Positions 23,458-49,063 of a DNA stretch of 64,000 nucleotides are shown here, in pieces (the stretch's first letter is position 1; every line of letters starts with the position of its first letter). The position numbers were made by a program, and so were the translations under genes. A model generated the notes under the pieces. It worked only from the letters and a program-made list of their open reading frames with translations. It was not told the origin of the DNA and ran no database searches. Source of the stretch: Betaproteobacteria bacterium. GTDB taxonomy: Bacteria; Pseudomonadota; Gammaproteobacteria; Burkholderiales; Casimicrobiaceae. The DNA lies in contig BOKS01000014.1 in NCBI GenBank assembly GCA_016861105.1, positions 80,718 through 144,717 of the forward strand, given 5' to 3'.

Positions 23458-23673
23458 TCAACGCGGTGTCGGGTTCGCGTCGCCGGCGCGCCGGCGGTTC
23501 GGGCAATCGTCGCAGGAGAGCTTGCGCCCGTCGCGACCGACGAGCGGCGGACCTCCGCAGGAGCCGCGCAGGCACGGGCGCTTGAAGATCACGCCGACCG
23601 CCATCGCGACCACCGCCAGACCCACGAGTGCGACCACGGCCCCGAGCACCGGCAGCAGCGTGCCTGCGTCCAT
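23458..23673 (-). CDS. nqrM: Na+-NQR maturation protein NqrM
   Basis: This 71-residue protein has one N-terminal transmembrane helix (LLPVLGAVVALVGLAVVAMAVGVIF) followed by clustered cysteines: KRPCLRGSCGGP and LSCDDCPNRR. These are the hallmark of NqrM (DUF539), needed to insert the membrane Fe centre of NqrD/NqrE. Placement directly after apbE, 5 bp from its stop, is the normal end of nqr operons. The track shows it only inside a longer ORF. Confidence 0.9.
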   Translation of the reverse strand: MDAGTLLPVLGAVVALVGLAVVAMAVGVIFKRPCLRGSCGGPPLVGRDGRKLSCDDCPNRRRAGDANPTPR

Positions 23674-23678
23674 GGCGG

Positions 23679-24728
23679 CTACGCCGCGGGCAGGGCCGGA
23701 AGGCGAGCGAACGCCGGCGACGCGAACCCGCGCAGCCCGCCCTGCTCGCGCACGATGAAGTACGCCGCGATGCCGTGCTTCGCGGCGAACTGCTGCGCGC
23801 GCTCCGGCCCCATGACCATCAGCGCCGTCGCCATCGCATCGGCGTAGGCGCAGGCGTCCGCGGCGACGGTGGCGGAGGCGAGCGCGTGCTCGACCGGCGC
23901 GCCGCGCGCCGGATCGATCTCGTGGCAATAGCGGCGGCCGTCGCGCTCGAAGTAGATCCGGTAGTCGCCGGACGTCGCGAGCGCCAGCCCTGAGAGCGGC
24001 ACGACCAGGTGCGGCCGCTGCGGGACGGCGTCCGGCTGCTCGATGCCGATGCGCCACGGCGCGCCCTCGGCGTTGACGCCGCGCGTGCGCACTTCGCCGC
24101 CGGCCTCGACCATGTAGCGGTCGCAGCCGGCCGCGTCGAGCGCCTCCGCCGCCCGGTCCACGGCGTAGCCCTTGGCGATCCCGGCGAGATCGAGCGCGAG
24201 CTCCGGATGCCCCTTGCGCGCACTGCGCGTCGCCGCGTCGAGCGCGAGCGCGCGGTGGCCGATGCGCCGCGCGATGGCGTCGCGCTCGGCATCGTCGACG
24301 ACGCGGTGGGCGCGGCCCGGTCCGAAGCCCCAGGCGTCGACGGCGGGGGCGATCGTGGCGTCGAAAGCGCCGCCGGTCGCCTCGGCCACGCGCTGCGCGA
24401 GCGCGACGACGGCGAAGGTGTCGGCCGACAGGCCGAACGGCCGCGTCGACGCGTGCCGGTTGAAGCGCGACAGCTCCGAGTCGGCGAGCCACGACGACAT
24501 CCGTGCCTCGACGGCCGCCAGCGCCTCGCGCACGGCCTCGTGCGCGCGCTGCACGAGGCGGGACGCGTCGCGGCCGGCCAGCTTCACGACGTAGCCCGAG
24601 CCCATGGCAGGGCCGCGGAACTCGGCCGCGCCGCCGCCGTCGCGCGACGGGCCGCAGGCGGCGAGCAGCGATGCGGCGCCGACCGCGGTGACGAAGCGGC
24701 GGCGGCGGGGAGAGATCAGCGCATCCAT
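23679..24728 (-). CDS. apbE: FAD:protein FMN transferase
   Basis: ApbE attaches FMN covalently to threonines of NqrB and NqrC in the periplasm. The 349-residue lipoprotein precursor has a lipobox at SLLAAC. Motifs include FRGPAMGSGYVVKL, ARMSSWLADSELSRFN, FDATIAPAVDAWGFGP, LDLAGIAKGYAVDRA and YMVEAGGEVRTRG, with Mg-binding residues near DACAYADAMATALMVMG. It lies within the nqr operon, consistent with its substrates NqrB (SGATLL) and NqrC (SGATIT) encoded upstream. Confidence 0.94.
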   Translation of the reverse strand: MDALISPRRRRFVTAVGAASLLAACGPSRDGGGAAEFRGPAMGSGYVVKLAGRDASRLVQRAHEAVREALAAVEARMSSWLADSELSRFNRHASTRPFGLSADTFAVVALAQRVAEATGGAFDATIAPAVDAWGFGPGRAHRVVDDAERDAIARRIGHRALALDAATRSARKGHPELALDLAGIAKGYAVDRAAEALDAAGCDRYMVEAGGEVRTRGVNAEGAPWRIGIEQPDAVPQRPHLVVPLSGLALATSGDYRIYFERDGRRYCHEIDPARGAPVEHALASATVAADACAYADAMATALMVMGPERAQQFAAKHGIAAYFIVREQGGLRGFASPAFARLPALPAA

Positions 24729-24757
24729 GGCGTGCTTTCGTGGGGCGGGCCGGCGAC

Positions 24758-25216
24758 TCAGCGGCCCGGGCCGGCCGCGGCCGGCGGAGTGTCGCGGACG
24801 GCCGCCTCGAAGCGGCCCTCGCCGTGCTCGATCAGGTGGCGCACGAGGTCGCCGATCGACACCAGCCCGTGCACCGTCGGCCCGTCGATCACCAGCAGGT
24901 GGCGGTGGCGGTTGACGTGCATCAGCGACAGCGCGGCCTCCACCGTGGTGCCCGGCGACACGAAGCGCACGTCGCGCGTCATCACCAGCGAGATCGGCGT
25001 GGTCGCGGCGTCGCGGCCCGCGTCGACGACGCGCACCAGCAGGTCGCGCTCGGTGAAGATCCCGCCGAAGAGCTCGTCCTCGGTCTTCACCAGCACCGCG
25101 CCGACGTGCTCGCGGGCCATCAGGTGCACGGCGTCGGCGACGCTCGCGCCCGCGTCGACCCAGACGATCCGGTCGCTCGCCTTGTTGCGGATGACGGCTT
25201 CGATCAGCGTCTTCAT
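24758..25216 (-). CDS. Tandem CBS-domain protein
   Basis: This 152-residue protein consists of two CBS motifs forming one Bateman module: SVADAVHLMAREHVGAVLVKTEDELFGGIFTERDLL and TVEAALSLMHVNRHRHLLVIDGPTVHGLVSIGDLVRHL. Such modules sense adenine nucleotides, NAD(H) or SAM. The gene is inserted between nqrF (8 bp gap) and apbE (29 bp gap). That suggests it senses energy or redox state for the NQR complex, although no such role is established to my knowledge. It has no membrane segment. Confidence 0.88.
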   Translation of the reverse strand: MKTLIEAVIRNKASDRIVWVDAGASVADAVHLMAREHVGAVLVKTEDELFGGIFTERDLLVRVVDAGRDAATTPISLVMTRDVRFVSPGTTVEAALSLMHVNRHRHLLVIDGPTVHGLVSIGDLVRHLIEHGEGRFEAAVRDTPPAAAGPGR

Positions 25217-25224
25217 GGCACCTC

Positions 25225-26451
25225 CTAGCCGAAGTCGTCGAGCAGGATGTTCTCGCGGTCGACGCCGTACTCCGTCAGCAGCCGGATCACGGAGTCGTTC
25301 ATCACCTTCGGGCCGCACAGGTAGTATTCGACCTCCTCCGGCGCCGGGTGGTTCTTGAGGAAGAGGTCGCGCAGCACGCCGTGCCGCACCAGGCCCACGG
25401 GACCGGTCCAGTTGTCCTCCGGGCGCGGCTCGGAGAGCACGAGGTGCCAGCTGAAGTTCGGGTGCTCGTCGGCCAGCCGGTCGAACTCCTCGACGTAGAA
25501 CGCCTCGCGCAGGTTGCGCGCGGAGTACCAGAACGACACCTTGCGCGACGTCTTCAGCCGGTGGAACTGGTCGAAGATGTGCGAGCGCAGCGGCGCCATG
25601 CCCGCGCCCGCGCCGATCAGGCACATCTCGTTGCCGGTCTCGCGCGCGAAGAACTCGCCGTAGGGCCCGGCCACCGTGACCCGGTCGCCCGGCTTCAGGC
25701 CGAACAGCCACGAGCTCATCTTGCCCGGCGGGATGTCCTCGCGGTAGTCGGGCGGGAACACGACGCGGATCGTGAACAGCAGGATGCCCTTCTCCAGCGG
25801 GTAGTTCGCCATCGAGTACGCGCGCTCCACCGGCTCGGTGACGACGGAGCGGAAGCGCCACAGGTCGAACTTGTCCCACTCCTCGCGGAACTCGGGCTCG
25901 ATGGCGAAGTCGCGGTACGACAGCGCGTGCGGCGGGGCGGTGATCTGCACGTAGCCGCCGGCCCGGAACGGCACGTCCTCGCCCGGCGGCAGCGCGAGCT
26001 TGAGCTCCTTGATGAACGTCGCGACGTTGCGGTTCGACAGGACCTCGCACTCCCAGCGGCGGACCGAGAACACCTCCGAGGGCACCTCGATCTTCATGTC
26101 GCCGCGCACCTTCACCTGGCAGGCGAGCCGCACGCCGCGCCGCGCCTCGCCGCGGCTCACGAACGCGGTCTCGGTCGGCAGGATCTGGCCGCCGCCTTCG
26201 CGCACCGTCACCTCGCAGACGCCGCACGAGCCCTTGCCGCCGCAGGCGGAGGGGATGAAGATCCGGTGCTCGGCGAGGGCGCCGAGCAGCGTTCCGCCGG
26301 CCGCCACCCTGAGCGAGCGGTCGGGGTCCTCGTTGACCGTGATCGTGACGTCGCCGCTCGCGACGAGCCGGCGGCGCGCGACCATCAGCACGCCCACCAG
26401 CAGCAGGACGACCGCCGTGAACATCAGCACGCCGGCGAGGATCGCGGTCAT
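25225..26451 (-). CDS. nqrF: Na+-translocating NADH:quinone reductase subunit F
   Basis: NqrF is the NADH-oxidising entry subunit. The 408 residues start with one membrane helix ([22 protein letters not shown]), then a plant-type [2Fe-2S] domain ([10 protein letters not shown] ... CQVKV). An FAD domain ([15 protein letters not shown]) and an NAD domain ([26 protein letters not shown]) follow, ending in LLDDFG. The ATG overlaps the nqrE stop (ATGA). All cofactor motifs are intact. Confidence 0.96.
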
Positions 26452-27062
26452 AGCTGGATGCCGGAGAAGACCATGAACGCGAGCGACAGCAGGCCGGCGG
26501 TGATGAAGGCGATCCCGGTGCCGCGCAGCCCGCGGGGGATGTCGGAGTAGGCGAGCTTCTCGCGGACCGCCGCCATCGCGACGATCGCCAGCGCGAAGCC
26601 GCCGCCGGAGCCCAGCCCGAAGACGACGCTCTCGGCGAACGTGTACTCGCGCTCCTGCATGAACAGCGACCCGGCGAGGATCACGCAGTTCACCGCGATC
26701 AGCGGGAGGAAGACCCCCAGCGTGGCGTACAGCGCCGGCGCGAAGCGGTCGATCGTCATCTCGACCACCTGCACCGCGGCGGCGATGGTCCCGATGAACA
26801 GGATGAACGACAGGAACGCGAGGCTCACGCGCGCGAACGCCGGCGAGATCCACGCGAGCGCGCCCTCCGCGAGCAGGTAGCGCAGGATCAGGTTGTTGAG
26901 CGGGACCGTCAGCACCTGGACGAAAACGACGGCCGCGCCGAGGCCGATCGCGGTCTCCACCTTCTTCGAGCACGCCAGGAACGAGCAGATGCCGAGGAAG
27001 AACGCGAGCGCCATGTTCTCGACGAACACGGCCTTCACGAACAGGTTGAGGTAGTGCTCCAT
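26448..27062 (-). CDS. nqrE: Na+-translocating NADH:quinone reductase subunit E
   Basis: This 204-residue six-helix membrane subunit begins [33 protein letters not shown]. Its conserved Cys (ICSF) and the Cys in VNCVIL contribute, with NqrD, to the intramembrane Fe centre. It is homologous to NqrD and RnfA/E, and context makes it NqrE. The gap to nqrD is 13 bp. Confidence 0.95.
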
Positions 27063-27075
27063 GGCGCGGCGCCCT

Positions 27076-27723
27076 TCAGCCCTCCTTGTCCTGCAGCTCG
27101 GGCTTCCAGGTCTTCAGCGCCCAGATCAGCAGGCCGACCAGGAAGAACGCCGACGGCGCGATGAGCATCAGCCCGTTGGGCTCGTACCAGCCGCCGCCGG
27201 CGGCCAGCGGCAGCACGTCGAAGCCGAGCACGCGCCCCGCGCCGAACAGCTCGCGCGCCAGCGCCACGAGCACCAGCACGACGGTGTAGCCGAGCGCGTT
27301 GCCCAGGCCGTCGAGCACCGACGGCCACGGCGGGTTCTGCATGGCGAAGCCCTCGGCGCGGCCCATCACGATGCAGTTTGTGATGATCAGGCCCACGAAG
27401 ACGGAGAGCTCGAGCGACAGCTCGTACAGGTAGGCCTTCAGCACCTGGTCGACGACGATCACCAGCGACGCGATGATCGTCAGCTGCACGATGATGCGGA
27501 TGCTGCCCGGCGTGTAGTTGCGCACCAGCGACACCGCGAGGTTCGCCAGCACCAGCACGAACACGACGCAGGCGCACATCACCAGCGCCTTGTCGAGCCG
27601 CGTGGTCACGGCCAGCGCCGAGCAGACGCCGAGCATCTGGATGCCGATCGGGTTGTCGATCAGGATCGGGCGCGTCAGCGTCGCGCGCTCCTGCGGGCCG
27701 AGCAGCGGGGCGGCGGTCGTCAT
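27076..27723 (-). CDS. nqrD: Na+-translocating NADH:quinone reductase subunit D
   Basis: This 215-residue six-helix membrane protein has [30 protein letters not shown] and [22 protein letters not shown]. Its Cys residues pair with those of NqrE at the Fe centre. It starts at an ATG overlapping the nqrC stop. Length matches the family (about 210). Confidence 0.95.
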
Positions 27724-28508
27724 GCGGCAGCCTTCCGGAAGCGTTCGAGGAACGGGGCGTAGCCGTCCTTGCCCAGCCAGAATCCGATGAGCCGCGACAC
27801 CCCGTTGCTGGTGATCGTCGCGCCGGACAGGCCGTCGACGCGGTGCGGATCCTGCGCGGGCGGCCCGGCGGCCCCCTTGATCACGCGCAGCTGCGGCTCC
27901 CACGCGGCGTCGTAGACCTTGCGGCCCTGCCACAGCGCCTGCCAGCGCGGATTGCCGATCTCGCCGCCGAGTCCGGGCGTCTCCTTCTGCTCGTGGAAGG
28001 TGAGCCCGCGCACCGTGTTGCCGTCGCGGTCGAGCGCGACGAAGCCGGCCATCAGACCCCACATGCCGGCGCCCTCGACGGGCAGCACGACCTGCACCGG
28101 TCCCGACGGTCCCTTCACGTAGTAGACCAGGCCGACGATCGGCAGCCGCGTGACGCCGGCGTCGTTCGCCGGCGCGGGGCGCGACATGCCCGGATCGTTG
28201 CGGGCGCGGCGCTGGTCGTAGCTGCGCGGGTCGAGCCCCGTCGCCTGCGCCGGCGCGCCGGTGGCGAGGTCGATCAGCGCCGGCTCGACCGCGCTCTCGA
28301 ACCGCCGCATGAGCTCGGCGTCCGACAGGCGCTCGTCGGGCGCGACGATGCCCGCCGCGAGCAGCACGTTCTTGTGGCGGTACAGCCGCGCGTTCTCGGC
28401 CTGCCGGTCCGCGAGACCCACGGCCGCGACCGAGACCACGAGCGCGCACACGACACAGACGGCGGTCGCGAACAGGACGACGTAGCGCGGCGACTCAAGC
28501 CTTGGCAC
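27720..28508 (-). CDS. nqrC: Na+-translocating NADH:quinone reductase subunit C
   Basis: This 262-residue subunit has one N-terminal helix ([25 protein letters not shown]) and a periplasmic FMN-binding domain. The flavinylation motif is [13 protein letters not shown], where the last Thr of SGAT(I)T carries covalent [18 protein letters not shown] is typical. It overlaps nqrB by 14 bp. Confidence 0.95.
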
Positions 28509-29727
28509 GGCGCCTCGCCCTCGCGCGGATGTTGCGGCGGACCATCGCGTAGTCGATGATCGGCGCCACGACGTTCATGAACAGGATCACCAGCATCGCC
28601 GACTCGGGATAGGCCGGGTTCACGACGCGGATGAGCACGATCATCGCGCCGATGCCGGCGCCGTAGATCCAGCGTCCGCGATCGGTGAACGGGGCGGTCA
28701 CCGGATCGGTGGCCATGAACGCGACGGCGAACGCCCAGCCGCCGGCGACCATGTGCCACCAGAACGGCACCGCGTAGTACGGATTCGAGGCCGGGCCCAC
28801 GGCGTTGAACAGGCTCGCCATGGCGATCGTGCCGAGCGCGCAGCCGGCCATGATCCGCCACGAGCCGACCCCCGTGGCGACGAGGATCGCGGCGCCGACG
28901 AGGCAGGCGAGCGCCGAGGTCTCGCCCATCGACCCCGGCTCGACGCCGAGGAACGCGCGCCAGAAGTCGTGGCCTTGCGCGGCGAACGCACCCTCCATGT
29001 GGCGCCACTCCGCCAGCAGCGTCGCGCCCGAGTAGCCGTCGACGGTGAACCCCGGCAGCGCCGCGGTCCAGACCACGTCGCCCGAGAGGAAGGCCGGGTA
29101 GGCGAAGAACAGGAACGCGCGCGCGGCCAGCGCGGGGTTCACGAAGTTCATGCCGGTGCCGCCGAACAGCTCCTTGGCGAAGACCACGCCGAAGCTGATG
29201 CCGAGCGCGACCATCCACAGCGGCGTCGTCGGCGGGAGGATCAGCGGGAAGAGCATCCCGGTGACGAAGAAGCCCTCGTTGACCTCGACGCGCCGCACGA
29301 TCGCGAAGCCGACCTCCCACGCGAGCCCGACGACCATCGTGACCACGTACATCGGCACGAAGTACATCGCGCCGTGCACGACGTTGGCGAGCAGCGAGTC
29401 GGGCGAGTAGCCGGTGCCCAGCCAGCGGATCACCGCGTGCCGCCAGCCGGGCAGCTCGCCGACCCGCGCCGGGTCGAGGGCGAGGTTCGCCTGGTAGCCC
29501 GTGTTCCACAGCGCCATCAGCACGCAGGGGATCGTCGCGATGACGACGATCATCATCATGCGCTTGAGGTCGAGCGCGTCGCGCACGTGCGCGCCGCCCC
29601 GCGTGCGCGTGCCGGGCGCGTAGAAGAACGTGTCGGCAGCCTCCCACAGCGGGTAGAGCTTGTGCAGGCGGCCGCCCTTCTCGAAGTGGCGCCCCAGCCC
29701 GTCCAGCGTCGTGCGCAGGTCCTTCAC
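28495..29727 (-). CDS. nqrB: Na+-translocating NADH:quinone reductase subunit B
   Basis: This 410-residue polytopic subunit carries covalent FMN at the Thr of GYSGATLL, and holds riboflavin and the Na+ path. It begins VKDLRTTLDGLGRHFEKGGRLHKLYPLWEAADTFFYAP. Other blocks are EVNEGFFVTGMLFPL, GGTGMNFVNPALAARAFLFFAYP and FMATDPVTAPFTDRGRWIYG. The GTG start overlaps the nqrA stop. No residue loss was noticed. Confidence 0.96.
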   Translation of the reverse strand: MKDLRTTLDGLGRHFEKGGRLHKLYPLWEAADTFFYAPGTRTRGGAHVRDALDLKRMMMIVVIATIPCVLMALWNTGYQANLALDPARVGELPGWRHAVIRWLGTGYSPDSLLANVVHGAMYFVPMYVVTMVVGLAWEVGFAIVRRVEVNEGFFVTGMLFPLILPPTTPLWMVALGISFGVVFAKELFGGTGMNFVNPALAARAFLFFAYPAFLSGDVVWTAALPGFTVDGYSGATLLAEWRHMEGAFAAQGHDFWRAFLGVEPGSMGETSALACLVGAAILVATGVGSWRIMAGCALGTIAMASLFNAVGPASNPYYAVPFWWHMVAGGWAFAVAFMATDPVTAPFTDRGRWIYGAGIGAMIVLIRVVNPAYPESAMLVILFMNVVAPIIDYAMVRRNIRARARRRAKA

Positions 29728-31109
29728 TCGTGCGCCTCCGCGCTCTCCTTCGCGAGCCGCTCCAGCATCTCGCGCAGCAGCGGCCCCCACTCGGTCTTGC
29801 CCGGATCGACGAAGGTCGCGAGCGCCACGTCCTCCTCGTCGAGCTCGAGCACGCCGAGCGCCTCGGCGCGCTCGACGTCCTTCGACGCGAGCGAGCGCAG
29901 CAGGAACGTCGGCAGCACGTCGAAGGGCATCACGCGCTCGTAGCTGCCGATCGGCACCATCGCGCGCGCGCCGCCGTTGGTCGTCGTCGTCAGCGCCAGC
30001 GGCGCGCGGCGCAGCCGGCCGAGGACGACGTTCCAGACCGAGTACTTGTCGCGGCCGGGCGTGATCCAGCCGAAGGCCTCGCGCGTCGTCGCCTCGGGCA
30101 CGACGGCGACCTGCTGGTGGTAGCGCCCGAGGAAGCCCGTCGTCTCGCCCATCGCGGTGCGCCCGCCGAGCACCGACCCGGACACGACGCGCTGCGGTCC
30201 CGGCGCGGTCTCTCCCGCGCAGAGCTCGTCCAGCGATGCGCCCAGCCGGGTGCGCAGCAGGCGCGGACGCGCGGCCCCCGGCCCGGCGAGCGACACCACG
30301 CGCTCCACGTCGAGCCGGCCGCTGCGGAACAGTTCGCCGATCGCGACCACGTCTTGGTAGCCGGCGTGCCACGCGCGGCGCGACGCGTCGACCGGCGCGA
30401 TGCGGTGGATGTGCAGGCCGGCCGTGCCGGCCGGGTGCGGGCCGGCGAACCGGTGCAGCCGCACGCGCGGCTCGCCGGGCAGGTCGAGGGCGAGGCCGGG
30501 GGCGGTGCACACGTGCACCGGGCCGTCGGTCAGCTTCGCGAGCGCGGCCACGCCGGCGGCGAACGCCTGCTGGCGCCCGTCGAGGACGGCGGCCACGTCG
30601 GGGGCGTGCGGATGGGTGTCGATCGCGGTCACGAACAGCGCGTGCGGCGCCGACGCGGGCGAGGGCACGCGCGAGAACGGCCGCTCGCGCAGCGCGGTCC
30701 ACAGGCCGGACTCGGTGAGCAGCGCGACGACAGTCGCGCGATCGAGCGCCGCGGGTGGCTTGCCGGTGTACGCGGCGAAGCGGGGCGCGCCGTCCGCGGC
30801 CTCGGCAGCGGCGTCCACGCGCAGCGCGAGCGACGCGAAGGCGCGACGCTCGCCGCGGTGGATCGCCTCGACGACGCCGGCGGCGGGCGCGGTCCAGCGC
30901 ACGCCCGGCGTCTTGCGGTCCTCGTAGAGCGGCTGGCCGAGCGCCACGCGCTCGCCGGGCGCGACGAGGAACGCGGGACGCAGGCCGACGGCGTCGGCGC
31001 CGAGCAGCGCGACGCGCTGCACCGGGCGCGCCGGTTCGATGCGTTGCGCGGGTGCTCCCGCCAGCGGCAGGTCCAGTCCCTTGCGAATCCGATGCAGCGT
31101 CGCGTCCAC
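29724..31109 (-). CDS. nqrA: Na+-translocating NADH:quinone reductase subunit A
   Basis: This 461-residue cytoplasmic-side subunit participates in quinone binding. It starts with a biotinyl-lipoyl-like hybrid fold: HRIRKGLDLPLAGAPAQ, LLGADAVGLRPAFLVAPGERVALGQPLYEDRKTPGVRWTAPAAGVV. Later blocks are FVTAIDTHPHAPD and GYQDVVAIGELF, with the C-terminal LATFVDPGKTEWGPLLREML. It is the first gene of nqrABCDEF, and a promoter with an FNR-like box lies just upstream. The N-terminus is slightly longer than in Vibrio. Confidence 0.95.
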   Translation of the reverse strand: MDATLHRIRKGLDLPLAGAPAQRIEPARPVQRVALLGADAVGLRPAFLVAPGERVALGQPLYEDRKTPGVRWTAPAAGVVEAIHRGERRAFASLALRVDAAAEAADGAPRFAAYTGKPPAALDRATVVALLTESGLWTALRERPFSRVPSPASAPHALFVTAIDTHPHAPDVAAVLDGRQQAFAAGVAALAKLTDGPVHVCTAPGLALDLPGEPRVRLHRFAGPHPAGTAGLHIHRIAPVDASRRAWHAGYQDVVAIGELFRSGRLDVERVVSLAGPGAARPRLLRTRLGASLDELCAGETAPGPQRVVSGSVLGGRTAMGETTGFLGRYHQQVAVVPEATTREAFGWITPGRDKYSVWNVVLGRLRRAPLALTTTTNGGARAMVPIGSYERVMPFDVLPTFLLRSLASKDVERAEALGVLELDEEDVALATFVDPGKTEWGPLLREMLERLAKESAEAHE

Positions 31110-31185
31110 GTCGTCTGCAGGGCGCGGCGCGCAGGCCGCACGCTCCTCCTCGTGCCGCGCGCGGAGGGACCGCGCGCAGGGCGAA

Positions 31186-31227
31186 AGCCTAGGGGCGCAT
31201 CGCGGCTGCCGAATTGACCGTCGTCAA
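31186..31227 (-). promoter_or_regulatory. FNR-like box plus -10 element upstream of nqrA
   Basis: TTGACCGTCGTCAA (31214-31227) is a perfect TTGAC-N4-GTCAA palindrome. On the minus strand TAGGCT (31191-31186) lies where the -10 of a class II FNR promoter centred near -41.5 should be. The element sits in the 143-bp gap between the malic enzyme stop and nqrA, so the nqr genes probably have their own oxygen-responsive promoter. Confidence 0.55.
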
Positions 31228-31252
31228 CGAGGCTGCCTCGACGCGGATGTCC

Positions 31253-32923: not shown

Positions 32924-33051
32924 GGACGTCGACTCCTGTTGGCCGCGCGCATCGCGGCGCGGGTCCCGCAGGCGGGCGCGCGGCGGCGCGGAGGCGCCCG
33001 CGACCCCGGGCGCGGCGCGCCGCCGCCGGCCGGCGGCGGACGGGGCGGGCG

Positions 33052-33297
33052 CTAGGCGTGCAACGCCTGGTACTTGGCGAGCAGCTGCTCCTTCGACTCC
33101 GCGTGCGCCGGGTCGGGGACGATGCAGTCCGCCGGGCACACGCCGACGCACTGCGGATCGTCGTGCGCGCCCACGCATTCGGTGCACTTGGCCGGGTCGA
33201 TCGTGTAGATCGGCGAGCCGGCCGCGATCGCGTTGTTGGGGCACGGCTCCACGCACGCGTCGCATGCGGTGCAGTCGTCGGTGATCATCAGTGCCAT
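33052..33297 (-). CDS. YfhL-type 2[4Fe-4S] ferredoxin
   Basis: This 81-residue protein has two cluster motifs: CTACDACVEPCP and CTECVGAHDDPQCVGVCP. The longer spacing in the second is typical of Alvin/YfhL-type ferredoxins with very low potential. DCIVPDPAH follows, and then a short alpha-helical tail. Lying between the PFOR/DHOD-like genes and malic enzyme, it is the obvious electron carrier between NifJ and NfnAB. The ATG has AGGAG about 6 bases upstream. Confidence 0.92.
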   Translation of the reverse strand: MALMITDDCTACDACVEPCPNNAIAAGSPIYTIDPAKCTECVGAHDDPQCVGVCPADCIVPDPAHAESKEQLLAKYQALHA

Positions 33298-33356
33298 GGT
33301 TCGCTCCTGTTGGCGTCGGGGGTCGGCGGCGGTCGCCCGCGGCACGCCCTCCGGGG

Positions 33357-34364
33357 TCAGAGATGCTCGCTCGTGTAGGACTTGAGCGCCTTCATGTAGT
33401 TGGCGCGCTCGAACGCGTCGGGGTCCGGGCAGGCGTGCTGCGACAGCGAGCCCTTGAGCTGCGTCACGGACTCGTACTCGCGCGCGGCCATCCACGCCTC
33501 GACGCCGCGCACGAGCGTGGCGACGTGCTGCGGGCCCCGCTTGAGCAGGCTGCTCGCGATCATCACGCAGTCGGCGCCGGCCAGCAGCAGCTTCAGCACG
33601 TCGTCGGGCGTGTGCGCGCCGCCGGTGGCCGCGAGGCTCGCGTCGACGTGCCCGTGCAGGATCGCGATCCAGCGCAGCGCCAGGCGCAGCTCGTCGGAGG
33701 TCGAGAGCACGAGGTGCGGCGCGACCTCCAGCTCCTCGAGCATGATGTCGGGCTGGACGAAGCGGTTGAACAGCACCAGCCCGTTCGCGCCCGCCGCAAC
33801 GAGGCGCATCGCCATGCTGGTCATCGCGCTGAAGTACGGCGCCACCTTCACGGCGACCGGCACGCTCGTGGCCGCGCGCACCGACGCGACGAGGTCGAGG
33901 TAGCGCTGCTCGACGGCGCTCGACGTGTCGGCCGGGTCGGCCGCGAGGAAGTAGACGTTGAGCTCGATGGCCTGCGCGCCGGCGTCCTCGAACTGCTTCG
34001 CCATCCGCGTCCAGCCGCCCGGCGTGTGGCCGTTCAGGCTCGCGATGACGGGGACCGACAGCGCCTTGCGGGCCTCGCCGATGAGCTTCAAATAGCGGGC
34101 GACGCCCGTCTCCTGCGCCTGCACCTCGGGGAAGAACCCGCGCGCCTCCGGCGACAGCTCCGCGCCGTAGAGCATCAGGTCGTGCGTGGCCATCTCCTCG
34201 TGCTCGATCTGCTCCTCGAACAGCGACGGGAGCACGACCGCCGCCACGCCGGCGTCCTGCAGGCGCCTGAGGCCGTCGATCGAGCCGGTCATCGGCGAGG
34301 CCGACGCGACGACCGGGTTGGCCAGCGGGAGGCCGAGGTAGCGGCTCGCGAGATCGACGCTCAT
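33357..34364 (-). CDS. Dihydroorotate dehydrogenase-like flavoprotein
   Basis: This 335-residue FMN TIM-barrel starts VDLASRYLGLPLANPVVASASPMTGSIDGLRRLQDAG and has VPVAVKVAPYFS, ATGGAHTPDDVLKLLLAGADCVMIASSLLKRG. At the position where true PyrD enzymes carry NLSCPN or NFSSPN, this protein has ELNVYFLAADPA, so it is unlikely to be dihydroorotate dehydrogenase. The family is repeatedly found next to pyruvate:ferredoxin oxidoreductase genes. Its ATG overlaps the nifJ stop (ATGA), implying a linked flavin-based redox function of unknown substrate. Confidence 0.85.
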   Translation of the reverse strand: MSVDLASRYLGLPLANPVVASASPMTGSIDGLRRLQDAGVAAVVLPSLFEEQIEHEEMATHDLMLYGAELSPEARGFFPEVQAQETGVARYLKLIGEARKALSVPVIASLNGHTPGGWTRMAKQFEDAGAQAIELNVYFLAADPADTSSAVEQRYLDLVASVRAATSVPVAVKVAPYFSAMTSMAMRLVAAGANGLVLFNRFVQPDIMLEELEVAPHLVLSTSDELRLALRWIAILHGHVDASLAATGGAHTPDDVLKLLLAGADCVMIASSLLKRGPQHVATLVRGVEAWMAAREYESVTQLKGSLSQHACPDPDAFERANYMKALKSYTSEHL

Positions 34365-37300
34365 GGCTTCACCTCCTCGGCGGCCGGCTTCGCGGCCGCG
34401 GCATCGTCGGGCGCCCCGGCCGGCGCGGCCTGCGCCTCCGGGACCACGCGGTGCACGCCGGCGATCTGCTCGTAGAGCTGCCAGCGGGCGTCGGCGTCGG
34501 CCTGCGCCGCGCGGGCGAGCTCCTTCGCGCGGGCCGGGTCGGCCTGCGCGAGCATCGCGTAGCGGCCCTCCTTCATCGTGAACTGCTCCAGCGGGATCGT
34601 GGGCTTGCGCGAGTCGAGCTTCAGCGGCTGGTCGGCGCCGCCCATGCCCAGCCGCGGGTCGTAGCGGTACAGCGTCAGGTAGCCGCTCTTCACCGCGTCG
34701 CGCTGGTGGCTCATGCCGGTGGTCATGTCGATGCCGTGCGCGATGCAGTGGCTGTAGGCGATGATCAGCGACGGCCCCGGCCACGACGCGGCCTCCTGGA
34801 ACGTGCGCACGGTCTGCACCGGGTTGGCCCCCATCGCGACCTGCGCGACGTACACGTTGCCGTACGCCATCGCGATCATGCCGAGGTCCTTCTTGCCGAT
34901 CGCCTTGCCCGCGGCCGCGAACTTCGCCACGGCGCCGCGCGGCGTCGCCTTCGACGCCTGGCCGCCGGTGTTGGAGTAGACCTCGGTGTCGAGCACGAGG
35001 ATGTTCACGTTGCGGCCCGAGGCGAGCACGTGGTCGAGCCCGCCGTAGCCGATGTCGTAGGCCCAGCCGTCGCCGCCGACGATCCACACGCTGCGCACGA
35101 CGAGGCTGTCCGCGACGGCGTCGAGCCGCCGCGCCGCGGGCGTGCCGAGCAGGGCGAGCACCTCCCGCAGCTGCTTCACGCGTGCGCGCTGCGCGGCGAC
35201 CTCCTCGTCGCTGTCCTGCTTCGCGTCGATCAGCGCGTCGGCCAGCTCAGGCCCGATCGCGTCGCGCAGCTCGCGCAGCAGGCCCTTCGCGAGGTCGTTC
35301 TGCGCGTCGATCGCGAGCCGCATGCCGAGCCCGAACTCCGCGTTGTCCTCGAACAGGCTGTTGGCCCACGCGGGCCCCTTGCCGTCGGCGTTCGTGGCGT
35401 ACGGCGTCGTCGGCAGGTTGCCGCCGTAGATCGACGAGCAGCCCGTGGCGTTGGCGACGATCATGCGGTCGCCGTAGAGCTGCGAGATCAGCTTGACGTA
35501 GGGCGTCTCGCCGCAGCCCGAGCAGGCGCCCGAGTACTCGAACAGCGGCCGGCGGAACTGCGACCCGCGCAGCCCGTCGATCGTGTCGAACGACGGCCGC
35601 ACCTCCGGCAGCGAGAGGAAGAACGCGTAGTTGGCGCGCTCGGCGTCGAGGTGCTCGAGCTTGGGCGCCATGTTGATGGCCTTGTGCTTGACCATCGTCT
35701 TGCTGCGCGACGGGCAGACGTCCACGCAGATGCCGCAGCCGGTGCAGTCCTCGGGCGCCACCTGCAGGCTGTACATCATCCCGGCGAGCGAGGGCGTCTC
35801 CTTGCGGGCGTACGGCACCGCCTTGAACGTCGCCGGCGCACCCGCCATCGCCTCGGCCGGGAACGCCGTCATCCGGATCGCCGCGTGCGGGCAGACGAGC
35901 GGGCAGATGGCGCACTGCGTGCAGATCGTCTCGTCCCAGATCGGGATCTCGTGCGCGATGCTGCGCTTCTCCCACTGCGTCGTGCCGGTCGGGAACGTCC
36001 CGTCGACCGGCAGCGCCGACACCGGCAGCAGGTCGCCCTTGCCGTCCATCATCATCGCGGTCACGCGCTGCACGAAGTCCGGCGCGGCCTTCGGGACGAC
36101 CGGGCGGCGCGCGAACGTCGCGTCGGCGTGCTGCGGCACGGTCACCTCGGCCATCGCCGCGAGCGAGGCGTCGACCGCCGCGAAGTTGCGGGCCAGGACG
36201 GTCTCGCCGCGCTTCCCGTAGGTCTTGCGGATCGCCTCCTTGATCTTGCCGATCGCCTCGTCGCGCGGGAGCACGCCCGAGATCGCGAAGAAGCAGGCCT
36301 GCGTGACCGTGTTGATGCGACCCGCCAGCCCGGCCTGCTTCGCGACGGCCAGCGCGTCGACGACGAAGAAGCGCAGCCTGCGCTCGATGATCTGCTGCTG
36401 CGCCTCGCGCGGCAGCCGGCTCCACACCTCGCCCGGACCGTAGGGGCTGTTGAGCAGGAACGTCGCGCCCGGCCGCGCCAGCGCCAGCACGTCGAGCTTC
36501 TCCATGAACTCGAACTGGTGGCAGGCGACGAAGTCCGCCTGCCGCACCAGGTACGTGGACTCGATCGGCGCGGGCCCGAAGCGCAGGTGCGAGACCGTGA
36601 TCGCGCCCGACTTCTTGCTGTCGTAGACGAAGTAGCCCTGCGCGTGCAAGGGCGTGTTCTCGCCGATGATCTTCACCGTGTTCTTCGTCGCCCCCACGGT
36701 GCCGTCGGCGCCCAGGCCGTAGAACACGGCGCGCGTCACGCCCTGCGGCTCGGTGTCGAACGCCTCGTCGACGGCGAGCGAGAGCCGCGTGACGTCGTCG
36801 ACGATGCCGACGGTGAAGTGCCGCCTCGGGGCGGGCTGCCGCAGCTCGTCGAGCGCGGCCCTGGCCATCGCCGGCGTGTACTCCTTGGACGACAGGCCGT
36901 AGCGGCCGCCGATCACGCGCGGCAGCGCCTTGCCGTCCGGCCACGCCTCGGCCAGCGCTGCGACGACGTCCTGGTAGAGCGGCTCGCCCACCGCCCCCGG
37001 CTCCTTCGTGCGGTCGAGCACGGCGATCGAGCGCACGGTCGCCGGCAGCGCCGCCACGAACGACGCCGTGTCGAACGGACGGTAGAGGCGCACGCTGACC
37101 AGCCCCACCTTCTCGCCCGCCGCGACGAGCGTCGCGACCGCCTCGCGCGAGGCGCCGGTGCCCGAGCCCATCTGCACGAGCACGCGCTCGGCGTCGGGCG
37201 CGCCGCTGTAGTCGAACAGCCCGTAGCGCCGGCCGGTCAGCGTCGCGAAGCGGTCCATCGACTCGCGCACGATGCCCGGGACGGCGAGGTAGAACGGGTT

Positions 37301-37996
37301 GCACGCCTCTCGCGCCTGGAAGAAGACGTCCGGGTTCTGGGCGGAACCGCGGAGCTTCGGGGCGTCCGGGTTGAGCGCGCGCTCGCGGTGCGCGCGCACC
37401 AGGTCCTCGTCGATCAGCGCGCGGACGTCGTCCTCGAGCAGGAGCTCGATCTTGTTGACCTCGTGGCTCGTGCGGAAGCCGTCGAAGAAGTGCAGGAACG
37501 GCACGCGCGCCTTCAGCGTCGACATGTGCGCGATCATCGCCATGTCCTGCGCCTCCTGCACGCTGGCGGAGGCCAGCAGCGCGAAGCCGGTGGCGCGGGC
37601 GGCCATCACGTCGCTGTGGTCGCCAAAGATCGACAGCGCGTGCGTGGCGATCGTCCGCGCGGCGATGTGGAACACCGCGGGCGTCAGCTCGCCCGCGATC
37701 TTGAACATGTTCGGCAGCTTGAGCAGCAGGCCCTGCGAAGCGGTGAAGGTCGTCGTCAGCGCGCCCGCCTGCAGCGAGCCGTGCACCGCGCCCGCCGCGC
37801 CGGCCTCGCTCTGCATCTCGACGACCTGCGGGACCATGCCCCAGATGTTCTTCTGGCCTGCCGCGGACCACGCGTCCGCGAGCTCGCCCATCGTCGACGA
37901 CGGCGTGATCGGGTAGATCGCGATCACCTCGCTGTTGAGGTGCGCGATGCGGGCGGCGGCTTCGTTGCCGTCGAGGACGTAGGTTCGGTCGCTCAT
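34361..37996 (-). CDS. nifJ: Pyruvate:ferredoxin (flavodoxin) oxidoreductase
   Basis: This single-chain PFOR of 1211 residues converts pyruvate and CoA to acetyl-CoA, CO2 and reduced ferredoxin. Domain order is standard: a TPP/pyrimidine domain (MSDRTYVLDGNEAAARIAH ... YPITPSSTMGE), a gamma-like domain (FYGLGADGTVGATKNTVKII), and two [4Fe-4S] ferredoxin motifs (ICTQCAICPLVCP near 690, CTGCGICVDVCP near 747). The TPP-binding domain has SGACSGCGETPY, GCSSIYGGN and GGDGWAYDIGYGG (near 980). The final Cys for the third cluster is visible in SYSHC-like IAYSHCIAHG. The oxygen-sensitive chemistry implies anaerobic or microaerobic use. Confidence 0.96.
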   Translation of the reverse strand: MSDRTYVLDGNEAAARIAHLNSEVIAIYPITPSSTMGELADAWSAAGQKNIWGMVPQVVEMQSEAGAAGAVHGSLQAGALTTTFTASQGLLLKLPNMFKIAGELTPAVFHIAARTIATHALSIFGDHSDVMAARATGFALLASASVQEAQDMAMIAHMSTLKARVPFLHFFDGFRTSHEVNKIELLLEDDVRALIDEDLVRAHRERALNPDAPKLRGSAQNPDVFFQAREACNPFYLAVPGIVRESMDRFATLTGRRYGLFDYSGAPDAERVLVQMGSGTGASREAVATLVAAGEKVGLVSVRLYRPFDTASFVAALPATVRSIAVLDRTKEPGAVGEPLYQDVVAALAEAWPDGKALPRVIGGRYGLSSKEYTPAMARAALDELRQPAPRRHFTVGIVDDVTRLSLAVDEAFDTEPQGVTRAVFYGLGADGTVGATKNTVKIIGENTPLHAQGYFVYDSKKSGAITVSHLRFGPAPIESTYLVRQADFVACHQFEFMEKLDVLALARPGATFLLNSPYGPGEVWSRLPREAQQQIIERRLRFFVVDALAVAKQAGLAGRINTVTQACFFAISGVLPRDEAIGKIKEAIRKTYGKRGETVLARNFAAVDASLAAMAEVTVPQHADATFARRPVVPKAAPDFVQRVTAMMMDGKGDLLPVSALPVDGTFPTGTTQWEKRSIAHEIPIWDETICTQCAICPLVCPHAAIRMTAFPAEAMAGAPATFKAVPYARKETPSLAGMMYSLQVAPEDCTGCGICVDVCPSRSKTMVKHKAINMAPKLEHLDAERANYAFFLSLPEVRPSFDTIDGLRGSQFRRPLFEYSGACSGCGETPYVKLISQLYGDRMIVANATGCSSIYGGNLPTTPYATNADGKGPAWANSLFEDNAEFGLGMRLAIDAQNDLAKGLLRELRDAIGPELADALIDAKQDSDEEVAAQRARVKQLREVLALLGTPAARRLDAVADSLVVRSVWIVGGDGWAYDIGYGGLDHVLASGRNVNILVLDTEVYSNTGGQASKATPRGAVAKFAAAGKAIGKKDLGMIAMAYGNVYVAQVAMGANPVQTVRTFQEAASWPGPSLIIAYSHCIAHGIDMTTGMSHQRDAVKSGYLTLYRYDPRLGMGGADQPLKLDSRKPTIPLEQFTMKEGRYAMLAQADPARAKELARAAQADADARWQLYEQIAGVHRVVPEAQAAPAGAPDDAAAAKPAAEEVKP

Positions 37997-38166
37997 GGTC
38001 TGGGGGCGGCAGCCTGACCTGCCGTGGATGCGCGCGCGGGCCGCGCGCGGATCGCTCGTGGTAGGAAGGTGCGCCCGCCCGCGCCCGGTCGTGCGCGCCG
38101 GACCCCGGTGGCGCGTGCGCGACGAAGCGAAGGGAGCGTCGGCGTCCGCGGCATGGACGGGGCGCG

Positions 38167-38820
38167 TCAGAGGAGACCCGGCTTGCCGGCCGCCCAGCGC
38201 CGGTACTCGGTGGTCAGGAGCTCGACGTGCTCGCGCTCCTCGGCGGCGAGCTCGCGGTAGAGCTCGCGCTCGACCGAGCCCTCCGGCGCGCGCTCGCCCT
38301 CGCGGGCGAAGAAGTCGACCGCGCGCTGCTCGAAGGCGATCGCGATGCGGAACAGGTTCGCGGGATCCTCCGGCTTGCGGTCGACGCCGGCGAAGATCGC
38401 CGCGCGGTCGATCTGGAAGTCGGCGGAAGGCGCGGGCAGCGCGGCGTGGTAGCGCTTCGACAGCGTCTGCATGTGCTCCTGCTCCATCGCCGCGAAGCGC
38501 GCGAACAGGTCGCGCAGCTCCGGGTCGGCCGCGTCCTGCGCCGCGCGCTGGTAGAAGGCGTGGCCGCCGAGCTCGATCTCGAAGGCCTTGCGCACCGCCT
38601 CCATCGCGCTGTCGTCCGCGATCGCGCCGCGCTCGAGCAGGTCGAGCCGGCCCTTGCAGTGCGGGCACAGGCCGTAGGGGAAGGCGAAGCCCTCGGAGAC
38701 CTTGTGGCAGGAGGCGCAGCGCCAGGAGAGCTCGACGCCCGCGCAGCAGATGTACGGCTCGTCGTCGTCGAGCGGGCGCTGGCAGCGCGGGCAGACGGCC
38801 ATCGACGTGGCGGCGGTCAT
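38167..38820 (-). CDS. Rubrerythrin-like ferritin-fold protein with N-terminal zinc ribbons
   Basis: This 217-residue protein begins with metal-binding Cys pairs (VCPRCQRPL, YICCAG, RCASC, LCPHC) that look like zinc-ribbon or rubredoxin-like knuckles. A four-helix ferritin-like domain follows, carrying Glu and EQEH-type ligands (EIELGGHAFYQRAAQ, FAAMEQEHMQTL, IAFEQRAVDFF, LAAEEREHVELL). This is a rubrerythrin-like diiron protein, probably a peroxide or oxygen scavenger that protects the neighbouring PFOR. The ribbon is at the N-terminus, unlike classical rubrerythrin. The ATG overlaps the nfnAB stop. Confidence 0.82.
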   Translation of the reverse strand: MTAATSMAVCPRCQRPLDDDEPYICCAGVELSWRCASCHKVSEGFAFPYGLCPHCKGRLDLLERGAIADDSAMEAVRKAFEIELGGHAFYQRAAQDAADPELRDLFARFAAMEQEHMQTLSKRYHAALPAPSADFQIDRAAIFAGVDRKPEDPANLFRIAIAFEQRAVDFFAREGERAPEGSVERELYRELAAEEREHVELLTTEYRRWAAGKPGLL

Positions 38821-41189
38821 GACGCTTCCTCGGTCTGGGTTGTCGTGGCGCCCGGCACGCCGGTGCCCGGCGGGACGAACGCTTCGGCGTGCTCGGCCGT
38901 GACCGGCCACACCGACTTGCCGCCGGCGAGCCAGGCGGCGATCGCGCGGGCGGCGCGGCGGCCCGCGCCCATCGCCAGGATCACGGTGGCCGCGCCCGTC
39001 ACGATGTCGCCGCCGGCGAACACGCCGGGGACGCTGGTCGCCTGCGTGGCGGGGTCGGCGACGATGTAGCCCCACTTGTTGAGGTCGAGGCCGGGAGTCG
39101 ACTTGGTCACGATCGGGTTGGCCTTCGTGCCGAGCGCGTAGATCACCGTGTCGCACTCGAGCTCGACGAACTCGTCCAGCGGCACCGGCTTGCGGCGGCC
39201 CTTCTCGTCGGGCTCGCCGAGTTCCATCTTCTGGACCTTCATGCCACGCACGTTGCCGTCCGCGTCGGTCAGGATCTCGACGGGCGCGTGGAGGAAGAAG
39301 AACTCGATGCCTTCCTCCTTGGCGTGGCGGAGCTCCTCGATGCGCGCCGGGGCCTCGGCTTCCGAGCGGCGGTACACGCAGCGGACCGTCGGGATGCCGA
39401 GCCGCCTGGCCACGCGCAGGCAGTCCATCGCCGTGTTGCCGGCGCCGATCACCACCACGCTCCTGCCCAGCGTGACCGGCGTGTCGAGGTAGGGGAACTT
39501 GTCGCCGCCCATCAGGTTGACGCGCGTCAGGAACTCGTTGGCGGAGTAGACCTGCCCCGCGAACTCGCCGGGGATGCCGAGGAACGCGGGCGCGCCCGCC
39601 CCGGCCCCCACGAAGACGGCATCGAAGCCCATCGGCCCCAGCAGCTCGGGCACCGAGAACGTCTTGCCGATCACCTTGTTGGTCTCGAAGCGGACGCCCA
39701 TGCCGGCGAGGTTCTCGACCTCGCGGGCGATGATGTCGCGCGGCAGCCGGAAGGACGGGATGCCGTACTGCAGCACGCCCCCCACGACGTGCAGCGCTTC
39801 GTAGACGGTGACGTCGCACCCGTACTTCGCGAGGTCGGCGGCGACGGCGAGCCCGGAGGGGCCGGAGCCGACCACCGCGACCCTGCCCAGCCTGCGGGCG
39901 ACGCTGCGCGGCTGCGCCCCGGGCGCGCGGGCGTTGTCGCCGACGAAGCGCTCGAGGCGGCCGATCGCGACCGCCTCCATCGGCAGCTTCTTGTTCTTCG
40001 CCACGACGCACTGCGCCTCGCACTGCGACTCCTGCGGGCACACGCGGCCGCACACCGACGGGAACAGGTTCGACTCGTTGATGACCGCGAGCGCGCCGTC
40101 GAGGTCGCGCACCAGCAGGTGGCGGATGAAGCGCGGGATGTCGATCCCGACCGGGCAGCCCTCGATGCAGGTCGGCTTGCTGCACTGGATGCAGCGCTCG
40201 GCCTCGCCGATCGCGTCGGCCATCGAGTAGCCGAGGTTCACCTCCTTGAAGTTGCGCGACCGCTCGACGGGGTCGCGCTCGGGCATCTTCACCGCGTGCG
40301 GCGGCAGGTCCTTGTACTTCTTGTAGTTGCGCTTGCCCTCGTCGAACAGCTGCTTCTCGACGTGGCAGACGTGCGCGTAGTCGTCGCTCGCCTTCGACTC
40401 CTCGCCCTTGAAGCGCTTCTGGCGCAGCATGAGCTCGCGGAAGTCGACCTGGTGGCCGTCGAAGTCCGGCCCGTCGACGCAGGCGAAGCGGATCTCGTCG
40501 CCGACCGTGACGCGGCAGGAGCCGCACATCCCGGTGCCGTCGACCATGATCGCGTTGAGCGACACCATCGTCTTCACGCCCGACGGCCGGGTCGTCTCGA
40601 CGCACGCGTTCATCATCGGCAGCGGCCCGATGGCGATCGCGAGGTCCGGGCGGTCGCGCGCGATCAGGTCCTTCAGCGCCTCGGTGACGAATCCGGGCCG
40701 GCCGTAGCTGCCGTCGTCGGTGCAGACGACGAGCTCGTCGCAGTAGCGGGCGAACTTCTCCTCCCAGAACACGAGGTCCCTGGTGCGAAAGCCGATGATG
40801 CCGGTCGTCCGGTTGCCCGCCTCCTTGAACGCGCGCAGCTGCGGGTAGACCGGCGCGACGCCCAGGCCGCCGCCGACCAGCACGACGTGCCCCGCTTCGT
40901 GGACGTGCTGCGCAAGCCCGAGCGGTCCCACGAAGTCGGCGAACGTGTCGCCCTCCCGGTAGTGGTCGCGCATCTCCAGCGTCGTCTTGCCGAGCGCCTG
41001 GATGACCATGGTGATCGTCCCGCGCTCGCGGTCGAAGTCGGCGACGGTGAGCGGGATGCGCTCGCTGCCCTCGTGCAGGCGCAGCATGACGAAGTGGCCG
41101 GGCTGGGCGGCGCGCGCCACGTCGGGCGCCTCGACCTCCCAGAGGAACGTCGTCTCCGAGAACGCCTCGCGGCGGAGAATCCTGTACAT
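38817..41189 (-). CDS. Fused NfnA-NfnB: NADH-dependent ferredoxin:NADP+ oxidoreductase
   Basis: This 790-residue chain joins two normally separate subunits. Residues 1-285 are the ferredoxin-NADP reductase-like NfnA (FAD region IPLTVADFD, NAD region LVGGGLGVAPVYPQL, [2Fe-2S] site GTGMCGSCRVTVGDEIRFAC). Residues about 330-790 are the GltD-like NfnB, with [4Fe-4S] Cys (CIQCSKPTCIEGCP, CGRVCPQESQCEAQC), FAD loop GSGPSGLAVA and NADP loop GAGNTAMDCLRVARR. Known NfnAB bifurcates electrons between ferredoxin, NADH and NADPH. It begins the minus-strand redox operon, 239 bp from an FNR-like box. A simple sulfide dehydrogenase (SudAB) role is the main alternative. Confidence 0.88.
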   Translation of the reverse strand: MYRILRREAFSETTFLWEVEAPDVARAAQPGHFVMLRLHEGSERIPLTVADFDRERGTITMVIQALGKTTLEMRDHYREGDTFADFVGPLGLAQHVHEAGHVVLVGGGLGVAPVYPQLRAFKEAGNRTTGIIGFRTRDLVFWEEKFARYCDELVVCTDDGSYGRPGFVTEALKDLIARDRPDLAIAIGPLPMMNACVETTRPSGVKTMVSLNAIMVDGTGMCGSCRVTVGDEIRFACVDGPDFDGHQVDFRELMLRQKRFKGEESKASDDYAHVCHVEKQLFDEGKRNYKKYKDLPPHAVKMPERDPVERSRNFKEVNLGYSMADAIGEAERCIQCSKPTCIEGCPVGIDIPRFIRHLLVRDLDGALAVINESNLFPSVCGRVCPQESQCEAQCVVAKNKKLPMEAVAIGRLERFVGDNARAPGAQPRSVARRLGRVAVVGSGPSGLAVAADLAKYGCDVTVYEALHVVGGVLQYGIPSFRLPRDIIAREVENLAGMGVRFETNKVIGKTFSVPELLGPMGFDAVFVGAGAGAPAFLGIPGEFAGQVYSANEFLTRVNLMGGDKFPYLDTPVTLGRSVVVIGAGNTAMDCLRVARRLGIPTVRCVYRRSEAEAPARIEELRHAKEEGIEFFFLHAPVEILTDADGNVRGMKVQKMELGEPDEKGRRKPVPLDEFVELECDTVIYALGTKANPIVTKSTPGLDLNKWGYIVADPATQATSVPGVFAGGDIVTGAATVILAMGAGRRAARAIAAWLAGGKSVWPVTAEHAEAFVPPGTGVPGATTTQTEEAS

Positions 41190-41427: not shown

Positions 41428-41441
41428 TTGATCGAGGTCAA
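41428..41441. promoter_or_regulatory. FNR-like box upstream of nfnAB
   Basis: TTGATCGAGGTCAA matches TTGAT-N4-(A/G)TCAA. It lies in the 551-bp divergent gap between nfnAB (minus) and frdC (plus), 239 bp from the nfnAB ATG. On the minus strand an AGCATT stretch near 41399-41404 is at about the right distance for a -10. The intervening 200 bp contains no gene I can support. Confidence 0.45.
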
Positions 41442-41656: not shown

Positions 41657-41670
41657 TTGACGGCCATCAA
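41657..41670. promoter_or_regulatory. FNR-like box upstream of frdCAB
   Basis: TTGACGGCCATCAA, centred 77 bp before the frdC ATG, matches TTGAC-N4-ATCAA. A possible -10 (GCTAAC, 41691-41696) lies close to the spacing of a class II FNR promoter. This is the strongest candidate promoter of the fumarate reductase operon. Confidence 0.55.
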
Positions 41671-49046: not shown

Positions 49047-49063
49047 GGCGCGTGGGCGCGACG

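Follow-up and report, generated by a model that had tools for sequence, protein, structure and literature searches.

Fermentation to succinate or propionate yields reduced ferredoxin but needs NADH, and the accepted solution is Rnf; the succinate pathway requires electron transfer from ferredoxin to NAD, and this is usually the work of Rnf, which is present in Prevotella (PMC10542786). In Prevotella bryantii, NQR and QFR form a Na+-translocating NADH:fumarate complex, SNFR (PMC8516057). Among transhydrogenases of the Nfn type, nfnAB-2 mutants of Desulfovibrio alaskensis grow slowly on malate and fumarate (PMC4215793), and Nfn genes beside those for pyruvate:ferredoxin oxidoreductase (PFOR) or fumarate reductase (FRD) have been drawn before (Liang 2019, PMC6405883, legend to Figure 2). 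A different kind of redox enzyme, the [FeFe] hydrogenase-rubrerythrin fusion HydR, is an H2-driven peroxide reductase (PMC11926857). How might the electron balance be closed without Rnf? We discuss here a 64,000-nucleotide stretch of a betaproteobacterial genome (the window; contig BOKS01000014.1, G000:C14:80718-144717; 71.8% G+C), in which a block of genes headed by a fused nfnAB would, on the reading of its genes that we consider likely though well short of secure, specify an anaerobically induced unit for the fermentation of C4-dicarboxylates and aspartate (malate, fumarate, aspartate) that manages without Rnf.

The block occupies the minus strand from 41189 to 23679 and comprises, in order, the fused nfnAB, genes for a rubrerythrin-like protein, PFOR, a dihydroorotate dehydrogenase (DHOD)-like protein, ferredoxin and malic enzyme, nqrABCDEF, a CBS-domain gene and apbE. 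The 14 genes are separated by gaps of -14 to 170 bp (ferredoxin counted), with overlapping starts and stops at nfnAB/rubrerythrin-like, PFOR/DHOD-like, nqrA/B, nqrB/C, nqrC/D and nqrE/F. A first-pass annotation had seen in fused NfnAB, PFOR, ferredoxin, malic enzyme and Na+-NQR a single redox hub on one strand, and all of these were indeed found, at 41189-25225. Of the boundaries that it gave (23458-41189), the right one holds; the left one belongs to an open reading frame for which Pfam gave no match, and the true left end of the block is apbE at 23679. Its list of parts, correct as far as it went, lacked the rubrerythrin-like and DHOD-like genes and, on the other strand, frdCAB (the presumed electron sink), aspartase and a Dcu carrier.

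The comparison with relatives covered 80 NfnAB loci obtained by scanning genome contigs. In 31 loci of betaproteobacterial type nfnAB is followed, as in the window, by the rubrerythrin-like gene and then by PFOR; a DHOD-like gene lies behind PFOR in 27 of these (the few others stop at a contig edge near there), and ferredoxin comes next in 20 of the 27. The full 14-gene order as far as apbE recurs, bearing out the idea of a conserved synteny, in one genome of the same genus (G061, the record behind locus L007; identity to the window 90% for nfnAB and 63-87% for nqr) and in one from another family of the same order (G440, behind L029; 83% and 56-81%), the CBS gene staying behind nqrF in both. 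That two other genomes keep the order means that the arrangement is not due to chance, and the spread of nqr identities (56-87%, with 83-90% for NfnAB) shows that the linkage is no recent copy within one species. Close relatives of this NfnAB are rare and patchy in its order, in keeping with the earlier view of an unusual combination: matches at E 1e-200 occur in nine of 399 genomes of the order, and fused NfnAB of at least about 73% identity in six of 64 genomes of the family. Two relatives within the genus (G044 and G049) have a different NfnAB lineage, without PFOR beside it.

The position of nqr is an interchangeable slot, which holds complex I in four relatives (L010, L018, L023 and L024). 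In L018 and L023 the ferredoxin gene is followed by the CBS gene, nuoA and more complex I genes; in L010 and L024 ferredoxin is followed by a member of that nuoA cluster, accompanied in L010 by one of the nuoD cluster (L024 is placed by the nuoA cluster only). NuoD of the block-linked complex I is 81-82% identical to that of the second complex I of the window's own genome, on contig C10, and about 40% identical to the other copy. A further nqr version, that of L061, lacks malic enzyme. In the group of L020, the divergent genes determine an E. coli-type fumarate reductase (Fumarate_red_C), followed by a DctPQM TRAP transporter in place of Dcu, and malic enzyme is encoded upstream of nfnAB in several of these loci. 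The roles of dicarboxylate uptake, malic enzyme, NADH:quinone oxidoreductase and fumarate reductase have thus been refilled by different proteins, and nothing speaks more strongly for the genes of the block acting together. The betaproteobacterial loci come from metagenome-assembled genomes (MAGs) or other assemblies, and single binning errors are possible (L013 is labelled Chitinophaga), but recurrence in so many assemblies makes an artefact unlikely.

The fused nfnAB (41189-38817, minus strand; Pfam DHODB_Fe-S_bind, Fer4_20 and Pyr_redox_2) finds its best PDB matches, for the NfnA and the NfnB part alike, in NfnAB of T. maritima and P. furiosus. The known ligand patterns of Nfn are Asp(Cys)3 in NfnA and, for one of the two [4Fe-4S] clusters, Glu(Cys)3 in NfnB (PMC8097209). 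Ligands for the NfnA [2Fe-2S] cluster (D217, C222, C225, C237) are invariant in 61 homologues, and the set expected for the two [4Fe-4S] clusters of NfnB (C333, C336, C341, C345, C380, C384, E387, C390, C394) is conserved, E387 being the candidate Glu ligand; Fer4_20 and Pyr_redox_2 also agree with an NfnB domain that has the FAD fold. By whole-sequence score, the NfnA part is nearer to the small subunit of NfnI, the bifurcating form of P. furiosus (309 bits), than to that of structure 5vj7 (175 bits), which we take to be NfnII. The gene appears to encode an Nfn-type enzyme, which may carry out bifurcation or confurcation. The same genome has a second, two-gene Nfn (L087:10781-8294, G000:C1; 52-58% identical) adjoining a KorA-type 2-oxoacid oxidoreductase gene (L087:8265-6370), so that each Nfn of this genome sits with a 2-oxoacid:ferredoxin oxidoreductase; locus L074 has both, the two-gene Nfn/2-oxoacid oxidoreductase pair lying directly behind the nfnAB-PFOR cluster. 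Defluviicoccus (L032, 402-21744, and L033) has a related fused nfnAB that lacks the rubrerythrin-like gene; it is flanked by nitrogenase-type genes on one side and a 2-oxoacid oxidoreductase on the other, and a 2Fe-2S protein is encoded next to it.

What is most unusual about the block is how NfnAB is tied to the rubrerythrin-like protein (38820-38167, minus strand; 217 aa; Pfam Rubrerythrin), whose gene overlaps the nfnAB stop codon in an ATGA. An N-terminal Cys-rich, possibly rubredoxin-like part precedes a ferritin-like diiron four-helix domain, the order in which reverse-type rubrerythrins have such domains. Across 61 sequences, the diiron ligands, with two ExxH motifs (E113xxH116, E195xxH198, E81, E164), are conserved, as are the N-terminal pairs C35xxC38 and C52xxC55, which are accompanied by additional cysteines (C10, C13, C25, C26); the protein has no rubredoxin Pfam match. 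The AF2 model is ferritin-like, and so are its best Foldseek matches; none of these falls below E 0.001, and we therefore give the protein no subfamily. In 26 loci it is fused to NfnAB as one polypeptide (in Myxococcota, Rhodospirillales, Acidobacteriota, Binatota, one Chromatiaceae MAG and some Rubrivivax MAGs), and fused and separate states have interchanged at least twice on the tree. Anaeromyxobacter terrae has one such natural fusion. A single family model, NF009413/PRK12775, spans both: the window's nfnAB matches its residues 1-775 and the rubrerythrin-like gene residues 792-1006, scoring 1541 and 337 bits on their own, below the cut-off of 1895 for the single chain, while the L043 fusion scores 2087. 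The fusion in some lineages and the overlap of the genes in others suggest that the two proteins work together. It is a more tentative idea, and one that we hold to be less likely than not, that they form one enzyme, a flavin-based transhydrogenase that bifurcates electrons and has a diiron outlet of its own, through which electrons of NAD(P)H or ferredoxin could pass to peroxide or oxygen. If they do, such an enzyme, encoded over several phyla either by two separate genes or by a fused one, would let facultative anaerobes keep PFOR-based fermentation going through swings in oxygen. A predicted structure of a 1006-aa fusion yielded no electron path, the domain placement being unusable (pTM 0.48). 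In a Rhodospirillales MAG (L037:3145-9720), Rnf genes adjoin an NfnAB-rubrerythrin fusion.

The remaining genes of the block all lie on the minus strand. The nifJ-type PFOR (37996-34361; 1211 aa; Pfam POR_N, POR, EKR and Fer4) scores 1754 bits on TIGR02176 (cut-off 911). The FMN protein whose gene overlaps its stop codon (34364-33357; 335 aa) scores 443.9 bits on NF005741 (cut-off 303). True DHODs have an SCPN catalytic motif; this protein, like the homologues compared, has ELNVYF where that loop is expected, and we call it DHOD-like. The 2x[4Fe-4S] ferredoxin gene (33297-33052; 81 aa; Pfam Fer4) was recognised on reading a gap in the DNA, and is followed by that for an NAD-type, MaeA-like malic enzyme (32923-31253; 556 aa; Pfam malic and Malic_M; NF010052 730.9 bits, cut-off 326). 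Then come nqrA (31109-29724; NQRA_N, NQRA_2nd, NQRA_SLBB), the only nqrA above cut-off in the genome, nqrB (29727-28495; NQR2_RnfD_RnfE; FMN-Thr motif DGYSGAT), nqrC (28508-27720; FMN_bind; FMN-Thr motif DGLSGAT), nqrD (27723-27076) and nqrE (27062-26448; both Rnf-Nqr) and nqrF (26451-25225; Fer2, FAD_binding_6, NAD_binding_1). Their sequence from A to F, the FMN-Thr motifs of NqrB and NqrC and the presence of an apbE gene for an FMN transferase (24728-23679; Pfam ApbE 286.6 bits) place these genes in the Na+-NQR type, for which Na+ translocation is predicted. The CBS-domain protein (25216-24758; 152 aa; two stretches of Pfam CBS) may be an adenylate sensor; its gene adjoins the NADH dehydrogenase in the Nqr version and in the complex I version (L018 and L023) alike.

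Diverging from the block, and beginning 551 bp from nfnAB, is a plus-strand operon that would provide a substrate route and an electron sink; counted with it, the block has about twenty genes. It comprises frdC, frdA and frdB for the membrane, flavoprotein and iron-sulfur subunits of fumarate reductase (41741-42514, Pfam Sdh_cyt; 42511-44544, NF006383 1119.9 bits, cut-off 663; 44554-45366, Pfam Fer2_3 and Fer4_8), aspA for aspartate ammonia-lyase (45437-46903; NF008909 710 bits, cut-off 510) and a gene for a DcuA/DcuB-type anaerobic C4-dicarboxylate carrier (46990-48318; Pfam DcuA_DcuB 464 bits). A fumarase was ruled out as the product of aspA, since aspartase models score higher and the fumC model is far under its cut-off. 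Behind the Dcu gene (48358-54076) lie one CitMHS-type and two DASS-type transporters, perhaps for extra di- or tricarboxylate uptake.

The idea of anaerobic induction comes from boxes of the form TTGAYNNNNRTCAA, which we regard as putative FNR/ANR-type sites in promoter positions. One (TTGATCGAGGTCAA, 41428-41441) lies in the nfnAB/frdC divergent gap, another (TTGACGGCCATCAA, 41657-41670) about 70 bp before frdC, and a third (TTGACCGTCGTCAA, 31214-31227) in the 143-bp gap between maeA and nqrA. The motif occurs four times in the window (0.06 expected) and 40 times in the whole genome (two for a reversed control), and the chance that three random sites in the 24.6-kb block, divergent operon included, would all fall into the nfnAB/frdC and maeA-nqrA gaps is about 2e-5. 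Of 26 betaproteobacterial loci, 18 have a box within 700 bp upstream of nfnAB, and of 24 others none has; outside this region, boxes occur in these loci at 0.028 per kb. G061 and G440 also have boxes between maeA and nqrA; all three genomes have them at the same two places, and where complex I takes the slot (L010, L018, L023, L024) there are boxes before nuoA. The box before nqrA argues for a separate nqr promoter, and because it lies within the block a single transcript is unlikely: the genes probably form two units or more, with an FNR-type box in front of each. The single hub of the first-pass annotation is supported by the conserved linkage, by the adjacency of malic enzyme, PFOR, ferredoxin and NQR, and by the Nfn ligand residues, but probably not as one unit, nor as tied to a sodium pump, which complex I replaces in four relatives. 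Two further boxes may be recorded: one at 20322-20335, an exact match, between a CoA-transferase gene (18211-20322) and a P-type cation ATPase gene (20431-22947), and one (L118:4743, G000:C10:162743) 254 bp upstream of nuoA in the C10 complex I of the same genome, relatives of which sit inside the block elsewhere.

How might these parts work together? From the genes and their arrangement, we infer the substrates, direction of flux, co-transcription, FNR regulation and rubrerythrin-like function as follows. Dcu would take up aspartate, and AspA would deaminate it to fumarate. Some of the C4 pool would be oxidised in the form of malate, by the NAD-type malic enzyme, giving NADH, and by PFOR, giving reduced ferredoxin and acetyl-CoA, from which acetate kinase (two are encoded in the genome) could draw ATP. 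One malate taken to acetyl-CoA would thus yield four electrons, carried by NADH and reduced ferredoxin, and these would suffice to reduce two fumarates. Since Nqr takes NADH, the ferredoxin electrons must get to NAD, and as the first-pass annotation supposed, this would be done without Rnf: no RnfC above cut-off was found in the genome, which is about 85% complete. Nfn would combine ferredoxin electrons with NADH to give two NADPH, which transhydrogenase (PntA was found in the genome) could convert back to NADH. NADH would power Nqr, with export of Na+, and the quinol would feed FrdCAB in reducing the remaining fumarate to succinate. Meanwhile, the rubrerythrin-like protein, with NfnAB, would probably serve as a peroxide or oxygen reductase guarding oxygen-sensitive enzymes.

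Several points weigh against this scheme. In most relatives the conserved core ends at ferredoxin, and no more than four loci have nqr linked to it (the window, L007/G061, L029/G440 and L061); the host is uncultured, its genome incomplete, and its two complex I copies mean that Nqr is not the sole NADH dehydrogenase; and regulator binding at the boxes is presumed. Moreover, Nfn need not run toward NADPH: the opposite direction has been proposed in D. alaskensis, so that the direction adopted here is one that we infer. With Nfn reversed, NADPH would be oxidised to give reduced ferredoxin and NADH, PFOR and malic enzyme would act reductively (acetyl-CoA to pyruvate to malate) in carbon assimilation, and ferredoxin would also supply other low-potential reactions. 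Such a role would suit the reversibility of Nfn (PMC4215793) and the related nfnAB beside nitrogenase-type and 2-oxoacid oxidoreductase genes in Defluviicoccus, but it seems unlikely for a block whose fumarate reductase, aspartase, Dcu and NADH:quinone oxidoreductases point to catabolism with fumarate as sink, and which has FNR-type boxes throughout.

NfnAB and the rubrerythrin-like protein might instead be chiefly a defence pair against oxygen or peroxide, shielding PFOR and carrying little fermentation flux. Their overlapping genes in the window and single-chain form in 26 loci, the conserved diiron and Cys ligands, the reduction of H2O2 by a hydrogenase-rubrerythrin fusion (PMC11926857) and the occurrence of the pair without PFOR in non-betaproteobacterial loci would all fit. 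Yet all the Nfn ligands and what seems to be an NfnI-like NAD domain have been retained, and the betaproteobacterial pair goes together with PFOR and ferredoxin, in several cases also with fumarate reductase, so a mainly protective role looks improbable. That the block is no more than a casual cluster of anaerobic genes sharing FNR-type control seems to us very improbable indeed: nqr, maeA and frd are certainly missing or differently arranged in many relatives, but the order is identical in genomes of different families whose nqr genes are 56-87% identical to the window's, starts and stops overlap, and functional analogues have taken the place of individual parts, which is hardly to be expected of such a cluster. 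The fermentation of C4-dicarboxylates and aspartate remains our preferred interpretation, and suggests that some betaproteobacteria may use Nfn and transhydrogenase with an interchangeable Na+- or H+-pumping NADH dehydrogenase.

In the open-licence papers searched we found no description of the 14-gene unit or of an Nqr/complex I exchange in it, no succinate fermentation in which Nfn serves without Rnf and no study of an Nfn-rubrerythrin fusion. The name of the NF009413/PRK12775 protein ('putative trifunctional 2-polyprenylphenol hydroxylase/glutamate synthase subunit beta/ferritin domain-containing protein') is silent on Nfn, and we found no publication on it; both its parts match the window, but it is one chain, and the window has two overlapping genes. 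KorABC, the 2-oxoglutarate:NADP+ oxidoreductase of Azoarcus evansii, is reportedly a 2-oxoacid oxidoreductase whose partner is an NADP reductase with a mass near 85 kDa, and is likened to the block by description. The first-pass claim that the block had not been described as a unit stands for the whole as far as these papers go, but not for Nfn near PFOR or FRD, already known from the figure legend cited above (PMC6405883). Pattern B of the fused Nfn proteins described there resembles the window's in having NfnA N-terminal to NfnB in one polypeptide with all cofactor-ligand residues; as set out in that description, it is given for Firmicutes, Bacteroidetes and Fusobacteria, and none of the four patterns has a rubrerythrin part. 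Unlike that description, too, the window's genome has a second, two-gene Nfn. For the tie to rubrerythrin, the nearest studied analogue that we found is HydR, in which a redox enzyme is likewise joined to rubrerythrin, the donor being hydrogenase rather than Nfn (PMC11926857); by analogy, the recurring tie points to a possible Nfn-driven peroxide or oxygen reductase, an activity only presumed for the window. Like SNFR of P. bryantii (PMC8516057), the block would lead from NADH through quinone to fumarate with a Na+ pump, but it links the genes for these, in a betaproteobacterium, to Nfn, PFOR, ferredoxin and malic enzyme. It shares with the Rnf-type succinate fermentation of Prevotella PFOR, Nqr, fumarate reductase and, as predicted, acetate formation, and differs in that no Rnf was found in its genome; Nfn is neither mentioned in that work nor among the alternatives named there (PMC10542786). 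The parts of the block are thus each known from other systems, and it is their combination that is new.

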